Shown piece after piece: positions 46,562-48,895 of a DNA stretch of 64,000 nt. The notes under the pieces were generated by a model that worked only from the letters and a program-made list of their open reading frames with translations, was not told the origin of the DNA and searched no databases. The stretch lies in assembly GCF_001269985.1 (NCBI RefSeq), contig NZ_BBZB01000001.1, positions 2,604,001 to 2,668,000 on the forward strand. The letters run 5' to 3'. The first letter of the stretch is position 1. Every line of letters starts with the position of its first letter. Made by a program: the position numbers and the translations under genes. This DNA comes from Pseudoalteromonas sp. '520P1 No. 423'. GTDB taxonomy: Bacteria > Pseudomonadota > Gammaproteobacteria > Enterobacterales > Alteromonadaceae.

Positions 46562-47344
46562 TTATGACGCCACCCTTTCTGTATATAACTTGTTTAAAGC
46601 GAGCTCAATTGAAAGGTTATCATCTTGTTTCATATAATAAGTCACTGTTCTCATGACAAAATCGACATTTTGCTTATGTTCTTTGGAAAAAGTTTTACAT
46701 AATGCTTTTAGTTTTTTATCAAACAAACTTTTATCAATTTTTGCATGATATGTCTGTATTGCAGTTTCGAAACTATTTTCATTTTCAGAATATAAGTCTT
46801 TTAGTTTTGCTTTAGGAACACGGTATTGTGTACTAGCAAACTCGAGCGCATCTCTAAAGTCAGTGAATTCATTATCAAAAACAGTGATCATAGTAACGGG
46901 AATATTAGCAATTTTTAATTTCTCACCATCAACTTCAAATTCAAATCCTTGATATTGGCTGCGTATTGAAGACTCTTTACCTAAGCCAATACCCGCTTGC
47001 ACACATTTTTGAAGTTGATAATCAAGCTCTTGTGCTTCATCTTCATTCCACATTTGATAAACGTGAATGGCTTTTTTATATTTTTTTGCTATTTTTCTTT
47101 TTGCAATATCTGCACGTTCACCAACTAGAGCTGATTTTTCTTGTTTTAGTGCACTGCAACATTCTTTACAGGCAGGTACTTGATAAAAATCAGCTTCAGA
47201 GCGTGTATGAATATAAAACTCAGCATATTTTTTTGGCGGGGCATAATCAAATTCTGTTGCGATACAACCACAATAAAAGCATGTATTAAAATCGCTTCCA
47301 TGTACAGCAATCATTTTCTGATAAGGCTCTTGTTTATCACTCAA
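46562..47344 (-). CDS. HNH-like zinc protein, unknown
   Basis: A 260-residue cytoplasmic protein. The N-terminal 70 residues look like a zinc-ribbon/HNH module: C22-x-x-C25 (FYCGC), then EFDYAPPKKY where HNH nucleases usually have a D-H pair, then C59-x-x-C62 (PACKEC). The catalytic histidine seems replaced by tyrosine, so nuclease activity is doubtful. The rest is charged and helical without a recognised motif. Neighbours give no functional hint; it opens a stretch with gene relics. Confidence 0.65.
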   Translation of the reverse strand: MSDKQEPYQKMIAVHGSDFNTCFYCGCIATEFDYAPPKKYAEFYIHTRSEADFYQVPACKECCSALKQEKSALVGERADIAKRKIAKKYKKAIHVYQMWNEDEAQELDYQLQKCVQAGIGLGKESSIRSQYQGFEFEVDGEKLKIANIPVTMITVFDNEFTDFRDALEFASTQYRVPKAKLKDLYSENENSFETAIQTYHAKIDKSLFDKKLKALCKTFSKEHKQNVDFVMRTVTYYMKQDDNLSIELALNKLYTERVAS

Positions 47345-47412: not shown

Positions 47413-47824
47413 TTATTTTTTTAAAATTATATAGGTGCCTTTTGAATCTTTATCCTTTAAATTACTTTTTATTACAGCCCACAAAACGGTTAAAGCTTCA
47501 AAATATTTAGCAATATCAAAAGCTGACTTATTTTGTTTTCTAGCCCCTTTAAGCATTTTATCTTCACCCGAATCAGCATCAGATACTAAATGGCCTACAT
47601 CTGTGATATTCATTACATGCTTAACATCATAATGATTAAACTCCAATGTCCTTCTAAATATATCTGTGAAGATATAAGTTCTTAAGTTACCAATATGTGC
47701 ATAATCATAAACTGTTGCTCCACATGCATATAAACCTACCCTATTATTTTTTAATAGGTTCAAAATTTCGAACTTTTCTTTCAAATGTATCAAATAGTGC
47801 AAGTTCTCTTATTGTTTGATGCAT
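47413..47824 (-). pseudogene. cysS: Truncated, frameshifted cysteinyl-tRNA synthetase
   Basis: Only the N-terminal catalytic part is present. [22 protein letters not shown] (read in two parts: the zinc/HIGH region) followed by [20 protein letters not shown] is unmistakably cysteinyl-tRNA synthetase. Homology stops about 110 residues in (FDIAKYFE), where a short unrelated tail ends at a stop; an intact enzyme has about 460 residues. The natural start, ATG at 47824 ([12 protein letters not shown]), is out of frame with the rest: the A6 run at 47747-47752 carries a one-base shift joining FEPIKK to NNRVG. Both defects indicate a dead copy; a functional cysS is expected elsewhere. Confidence 0.82.
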
Positions 47825-47858
47825 AAATTTCTCTTTAATTATTTTATTCGGTCACAAA

Positions 47859-47888
47859 AAAAGGCCATTGATTTTTCAACGGCCTTTT
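47859..47888 (-). terminator. Orphan minus-strand terminator
   Basis: AAAAGGCC / GGCCTTTT plus an inner TTG/CAA pair around one mismatch, with a T7 tract on the minus strand. No intact minus-strand gene ends just upstream of it, so it may be the remnant of a lost gene or serve read-through from the suc operon. Confidence 0.65.
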
Positions 47889-48059: not shown

Positions 48060-48395
48060 ATTGAATTTAAGACAGTGATAAACTGCTTTACCGATTTAAT
48101 GTTTTTAATCACTTCTCAAATAGCGCAAAAACTCTGTAATACCACAGCAAATGTAAGAGAGTTAGCTTTTATGGATGTATCTGGTCGAATTACAAATACT
48201 TTACTGCTACTTCTCAAAGAACCAGACGCATTGACTCACCCTGAAGGTATGCAGATAAAAATAACAAGACAAGAAATAGCACATTTAGCTGGATGCACTC
48301 GTGAAGTTGCTCGTCGAGTTTTAAAAAATTTAGAGAAACAAGGGTTAATTGAAGCCAAAGGTAAGACTATTGTCGTTCGTAATAGCCAGTATTAA
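48060..48395 (+). pseudogene. crp: Truncated crp-like regulator (C-terminal DNA-binding half)
   Basis: The reading frame encodes the C-terminal part of a CRP protein: FMDVSGRITNTLLLLLKEPDA, then THPEGMQIKITRQEIAHLAGCTREVARRVLKNLEKQGLI and GKTIVV, close to E. coli CRP from its long helix to the end. The whole cyclic-nucleotide-binding barrel is missing, and a stop lies in frame just before 48060, so only about 110 residues remain. A GTG at 48075 or ATG at 48099 could start a free helix-turn-helix domain, but no good ribosome-binding site is seen. Most simply a relic of a second crp copy. Confidence 0.75.
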
Positions 48396-48420
48396 TTAAC
48401 CAAAAATTTTAAATTAAGAT

Positions 48421-48580
48421 ATTAAAAAGGTTACCTAAATGACCTTATTATTAAAATAAAGTATGTGGTTAAACTACCAACCAATTTTTTATGTAAGACC
48501 TTTATCGCTTTCTTTGGGTAAGAGCTGCTAGTAGCTTACAGTTTTAACACTACTAGATTCTTTTTAACTAAAATTTAGGC
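48421..48580 (-). repeat. Decayed tandem copy C of the sucD 3' end plus terminator
   Basis: This is the oldest-looking copy of a unit that also contains the real sucD tail. It keeps CTACCAACCA at 48474, ACAGTTTTAACAC at 48538 and a degraded hairpin near 48424-48450. On the minus strand VKTV is still readable before stops. It is about 160 bp in period with the next copy. Confidence 0.8.
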
Positions 48581-48741
48581 ATTAAAAAGGCCACTTAAGT
48601 GACCTTTTTATTAGATTAAACTAAGTAGGTGAGCTACCAACCAGTTTTTTCTGTAAGTGCTTTACTGCTTTCTTTGTGTAAGAGCAGCTAGTGAGCGAAC
48701 AGTTTTAACACTAGTAGATTCTTATGAACTAAAATTTAGGC
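48581..48741 (-). repeat. Tandem copy B of the sucD 3' end plus terminator
   Basis: A better preserved copy. It has a hairpin (48584-48609) and CTACCAACCAG at 48634, which on the minus strand encodes the sucD end TGW in another frame. VKTVRSLA is readable before a frameshift and stop. It shares a segment of about 13 bp (CTTTCTTTGTGTAAGAG-like) with copy C that the true sucD lacks. Confidence 0.85.
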
Positions 48742-48895
48742 ATTAAAAAAGGCCACAAATGAATAGTGACCTTTTTATTAGATTAAACTGAGTAGGTAGA
48801 CTACCAACCAGTTTTTTCTGTAAGTGCTTTACCGATCTCAGCAAGTGAGCGTACAGTTTTAACACCAGCAGCTTCTAGCGCAGCAAATTTCTCAT
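48742..48895 (-). repeat. Parental unit A: sucD 3' end plus terminator
   Basis: The functional unit from which copies B and C derive, comprising the terminator hairpin and about the last 31 codons of sucD. Identity with copy B is obvious over ACCAACCAGTTTTTTCTGTA and over the ACAGTTTTAACAC segment. Confidence 0.85.
48746..48776 (-). terminator. Terminator of sucCD
   Basis: AAAAAGG-C-CAC pairs with GTG-A-CCTTTTT with one mismatch, followed by T-rich sequence on both strands. A second, longer-stemmed version is present in repeat copy B (48584-48609), so the operon has a duplicated terminator. Confidence 0.7.

Follow-up and report, generated by a model that had tools for sequence, protein, structure and literature searches.

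Origin of a tandem triplication of the sucD gene end and terminator in a Pseudoalteromonas genome

How did the end of sucD, together with its terminator, come to stand three times in succession behind a single intact gene, and do the additional copies have a role? The question is raised by a stretch of 64,000 nt from Pseudoalteromonas sp. '520P1 No. 423', referred to here as the window, which occupies positions 2604001-2668000 on a contig of 4.07 Mb; the genome comprises two contigs and 5.39 Mb. The minus strand of the window encodes sucABCD, with the end of sucD at 48801.

The repeat array and its locus

The original prediction, made from the sequence alone, was that the sucD tail and its terminator occur in tandem triplicate, and this was borne out by TRF, by MAFFT alignment, and by comparison with shuffled sequence. 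TRF reported an array at 48421-48834 with a period of 160, 2.5 copies, 84% matches, and a score of 558. There are three head-to-tail units of 153, 161, and about 160 bp (A, B, and C; Table 1), each carrying the ∼30 last codons of sucD and a terminator; unit borders were counted from AAATTT, the motif at the start of every unit. When aligned with MAFFT on the sucD strand, A and B were identical at 121 of 148 aligned bases (82%), B and C at 134 of 160 (84%), and A and C at 105 of 147 (71%). Local alignment scores were 156 for A/B, 157 for B/C, and 72 for A/C, while 1000 dinucleotide shuffles of each gave means of 17.4-18.2 and maxima of 30-33, so the identity between units is far better than that of shuffled sequence. 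The anchor strings listed in the prediction were found at their positions in all units, the one at 48742 reading ATTAAAAAAG. These results confirm a tandem duplication with adjacent head-to-tail copies above chance. The array does not look like an assembly artifact, since the copies differ by 16-29%.

Table 1. Features of the sucD array and its surroundings, in window coordinates
Feature	Position	Strand	Evidence
sucD, succinate--CoA ligase subunit alpha, intact, 290 aa	48801..49673	-	NCBIfam NF004230, 492.7 bits, cut-off 336
Unit A, live sucD tail, 3' UTR, and terminator, 153 bp	48738..48890	-	alignment
Unit B, middle copy, 161 bp, probably mosaic, junction near 48667	48577..48737	-	alignment
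Unit C, most decayed, about 160 bp, beside crp remnant	about 48417..48576	-	alignment
13-bp insertion of B, frame-breaking, common to C	48673..48685	-	alignment
13-bp insertion of C, one base different from that of B	48513..48525	-	alignment
Terminator hairpin of A	48745..48776	-	folding, -13.0 kcal/mol
Terminator hairpin of B, intact	48584..48609	-	folding, -14.3 kcal/mol
Terminator remnant of C, decayed	48424..48449	-	folding, -3.6 kcal/mol
crp remnant, C-terminal helix-turn-helix part only, convergent to sucD	48075..48395	+	Pfam PF13545, 49.1 bits
Leader ORF, four consecutive Cys codons	47906-47992	-	
Terminator after leader ORF, strong	47856-47888	-	-17.7 kcal/mol
Remnant of second, divergent cysS, N-terminal	47413..47802 (to 47824)	-	Pfam PF01406; residues 21-111 of 470
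Conserved ORF, 260 aa, CxxC-like pairs	46562-47344	-	

Unit B encodes VKTVRSLA and then loses its frame through the 13-bp insertion, as had been predicted, and alignment also agreed with the claim that the insertion is present in B and C and not in A. Additional changes in unit C include a stop within the part corresponding to KALTEKTGW. By eye, candidate sources of the insertion are GCACTTACAGAAA of the sucD tail itself (11/13) and a 12-base stretch of the crp gene of a relative, G033, both of which it resembles.

Next to the array itself, we considered sucD loci in other genomes. sucD was present in all 99 genus genomes searched. From 110 loci, 30 from the genus (one being the window's own) and 80 named, L066 was left out, and in the remaining 109 each locus's own sucD tail was searched against its downstream sequence. 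Besides the window's own locus, a repeat was matched in L040, and none was found in the other 107 of 108 loci, four of which have short downstream sequence (L006, 594 nt; L041, 390 nt; L077, 147 nt; L103, 72 nt) and two of which, L011 and L035, probably come from a single genome. The match in L040, a Thalassotalea, is an unrelated 155-bp palindrome-rich intergenic repeat with two copies after sucD. When the 1401 bases that follow sucD were used as the query of a DNA search, with only a few candidates scored per genome, 20 of 108 genus genomes were matched. Besides the window's own genome, long stretches were matched only in G003 and G033, and the remaining matches were short tail or terminator pieces. 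Over 873 bases, sucD of the window differs from that of G033 at 52 positions and from that of G003 at 73. The comparison with the sucD 3' region of relatives, suggested along with the prediction, showed a single tail in G003 and in G033. The array is absent from the close relatives checked and was found only in the window's genome.

The genes beyond the array are broken. The match between the crp remnant and its G033 homolog contains two stops, while crp of G033 is intact (210 aa; NCBIfam CRP NF008732, 312.9 bits vs. a cut-off of 266). The order in G033 is one sucD tail, the intact convergent crp, a protease-like ORF, and a second cysS, with sucD and crp converging on a single symmetrical terminator. 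G003 has no crp left, and its sucD terminator is directly followed by the cysS leader. The remnants of crp and the second cysS in the window and the loss of crp from G003 place the array within a gene-losing region.

Several observations on these neighbors were made in passing. CRP seems rare in the genus at E <= 1e-20, as the G033 protein matched 2 of 108 genus genomes, namely the window's remnant and G033 itself. Three of the 108 genus genomes carry the second, divergent cysS, which is intact in G033 (L145, 2187-3599, minus strand), in pieces at contig ends in G003, and a remnant in the window. A match at 35-39% was present in all 108 genus genomes; it presumably represents the ordinary CysS and, in the case of G033, may also be the second one itself. 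Beside the second cysS, the conserved 260-aa ORF is found again in G033 (L145, 1390-2175, minus strand), and that copy had no NCBIfam match. The leader ORF ahead of the cysS remnant reads MYLYTNHQSNTNLQTCCCCNLLLPFFSI, and the leaders of G003 (CCCC) and G033 (CCC) before the same cysS have other sequences. From its sequence, a cysteine leader before cysS suggests ribosome-mediated attenuation that depends on the supply of cysteine-tRNA. For Rhodobacterales, a cysS leader working on this principle, uORFC-8-2, has been published (PMC8632094); our literature search found no paper on a gammaproteobacterial cysS leader of this kind.

Origin of the units and the composition of unit B

The penultimate Gly codon is GGT in A, B, and C and GGC in the six relatives compared, and this common derived base indicates that all three units derive from the lineage's own sucD. 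Import of the copies from another species is not favored, since the GGT base of A, B, and C is absent from the six relatives. Units B and C start with GCCTAAATTTTAG, which resembles the sequence after the terminator in G033, TGTCTAAATTTAT, suggesting that the duplicated unit began in sucD and extended beyond the terminator. The AAATTT common to the units is a plausible duplication junction; against a 6-bp junction, the motif is that of the present-day sequence, and sucD of G033 reads AAGTTT at that place.

The array very probably arose by illegitimate tandem duplication, one later exchange, and neutral decay. The segment from AAATTT in the last ∼35 sucD codons to AAATTT past the terminator would have been duplicated head to tail by illegitimate recombination of the microhomology or slippage type, harmlessly, because the upstream copy retained the whole sucD gene. 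Point changes would then have arisen in the downstream copy, which would also have gained the 13-bp insertion. Later, the two copies would have recombined unequally to give a third unit, B, that resembles C in its 5' part and A in its 3' part. Finally, the additional units would have decayed, presumably without selection, along with the adjoining crp and second cysS.

The exchange was examined with sites polarized on G033 and G003, after removal of columns that contain gaps or in which these two relatives have different bases. In addition to the insertion, B and C have six derived bases in common (columns 4, 7, 10, 52, 54, and 90), of which five lie in the 5' part, and A and B have two (columns 106 and 149), both in the 3' part. 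Private derived bases number 14 in C, 3 in B, and 2 in A. Sites derived in C are also derived in B at 5/8 in the 5' part and at 1/12 in the 3' part, a contrast with a Fisher p of 0.018 for a split picked after viewing the data. A permutation test of the mosaic pattern gave p 0.03 on an earlier, slightly misregistered alignment, and an unpolarized max-chi test gave p 0.056; when B/C and A/B sites were split by half, the difference was not significant (p 0.107). Against a mosaic, the sites are few, and column 90, common to B and C, falls within the A-like part. From the pattern of these sites, B as the product of an exchange between A and C is favored but not proven. A mosaic B would explain why this unit is half young and half old, and with it the graded decay that was originally seen in the three units. 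C is indeed the most decayed copy, by its private derived bases and by its hairpin, but the pattern as a whole is better explained by a mosaic B, on modest statistics.

A rather unlikely alternative is that duplication simply happened twice in a row, first of A to A+X and then of X to B+C, without any exchange, and that C decayed faster than B. The six derived bases and the insertion common to B and C fit this course of events, and the insertion likewise agrees with the earlier proposal that B or C was copied from the other. That proposal leaves the 3' part of B unexplained, given the two derived bases that A and B have and C lacks. In addition, 11 of the 12 C-derived changes of the 3' part are missing from B, and the B-only changes are few compared to those of C. 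An older array may also have been lost in G033 and G003.

Terminators and possible roles of the extra units

Up to three terminators in series had been predicted. By folding, only two are good, those of A and B, and that of C is nearly dead. The stable hairpin and T-run are kept in A and B and not in C. For comparison, the sucD terminators of relatives folded at -13.1 (G003) and -11.8 kcal/mol (G033), and in the alignment the hairpin loop of A is 5 nt longer than those of B, C, G033, and G003. The good terminator of B is probably due to its 3' part having been derived from A more recently. A simple consensus terminator scan left A, B, and C all uncalled, and its two matches fall within sucD; reading the scan's rule, we attribute the misses to T-runs that pair within the stem or to a long loop.

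Promoter-like sites were at chance level (6 found vs. a mean of 6.2) and, therefore, terminator B, if active, could act only on read-through from A. It may serve as a passive back-up to A. There is no evidence of function, transcription, or a role for units B and C. Terminator stacking between sucD and the convergent crp, selected and kept against read-through, is improbable as the reason for the array. The hairpin of B equals or betters that of A, and the convergence of sucD and crp on one terminator in G033 would suit this explanation. However, the hairpin of C is dead, crp is itself a remnant in the window, so that little remains to insulate, and one terminator suffices in relatives.

Other gene-tail arrays and comparison with known systems

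Similar arrays were found elsewhere on the chromosome by a tail-echo test, in which the last 150 bases of an ORF recur within 800 bases downstream (mechanical ORFs of at least 100 aa, 2.4 Mb). Tail echoes were detected for 12 of 1866 ORFs and head echoes, from the same test on gene starts, for 8 of 1866. When a tRNA repeat, two echoes forming a reciprocal 24-nt match, and two at >500 nt are discounted, 7 close echoes remain of the 12; they include purU (three tails), a formyltransferase gene (three), tadA (two), and sucD. TRF over 2.4 Mb with a period of at least 50 gave 36 arrays, 20 outside ORFs, 8 inside, 5 across a stop, and 3 across a start. Besides the sucD array, the 5 across a stop include the triplicated tails of purU and the formyltransferase gene. 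Neither the echoes (12 vs. 8) nor the arrays (5 vs. 3) showed a significant bias toward gene ends, the numbers being too few. In other species, no tail echoes were seen among 426 ORFs at the 80 named loci, a control too small for a rate difference.

The purU array lies at about 5940-6300 of L234 on the minus strand with a 116-bp period, and that of the formyltransferase-domain gene at about 4760-5160 of L238 on the plus strand with a 125-bp period; each has three tail copies. purU matches in other genus genomes have about one unit each. The sequence after the last purU or formyltransferase copy differs from that between copies, so the origin of these two may not be plain duplication.

With gene-tail arrays elsewhere on the chromosome, the sucD array appears as a routine outcome. 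It is doubtful, and we give the idea little weight, that gene 3' ends serve in this lineage as hot spots for tandem triplication of 115-160 bp units via a process tied to termination, with the sucD array as the oldest one visible.

Insertion of integrative elements typically leaves duplicated gene tails, and broken genes adjoin the array. A scar of elements that targeted the sucD 3' end and brought their own tail copy is nevertheless highly improbable and was rejected, because the units abut without cargo or integrase in between and G033 has the adjacent crp and cysS intact beside a single sucD tail. It is hardly credible that the units are extra copies of an sRNA processed from the sucD 3' end, like SdhX of enteric bacteria: SdhX does arise from the sucD 3' UTR and end at the sucD terminator (PMC6393394), but its core seed, CGACAU, is missing from A, B, and C as read off the sequence, the stretch from stop codon to terminator is variable among relatives, no Rfam match was obtained at gathering score, and, as noted above, promoter-like sites are at chance.

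The sucD array is a real mutational scar, ordinary in kind. It illustrates that a central operon can acquire extra terminators and gene-end debris without cost, since the gene stays whole when its tail duplicates, and that such debris is overlooked by annotation. A single locus does not decide whether duplication is frequent at gene ends or duplicates survive there. A title-level literature search, which does not prove absence, recognized no report of tandem gene-tail arrays.

Among known systems, SdhX (RybD) resembles the array in coming from the end of the same gene, sucD, with a terminator at the 3' end; the array differs in lacking the core seed and in showing no sign of a conserved 3' UTR. 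The purU, formyltransferase, and tadA arrays are like that of sucD in that the tail and adjoining sequence are repeated once or twice just downstream. Their copies are 90-96% identical, which suggests that they are younger, and the purU copies, unlike those of sucD, have a terminator only after the last copy. The closest likeness in kind is to small bacterial tandem duplications formed by slippage or microhomology and expanded by unequal exchange. These have the same head-to-tail units and decaying copies, a shared junction such as AAATTT plausibly is, and a mosaic unit such as B probably is; like the sucD array, they are private to one lineage. The sucD array differs from them in that its unit covers a gene end and terminator, so that the gene is intact, and in that its copies are unusually diverged for an array that is still recognizable.
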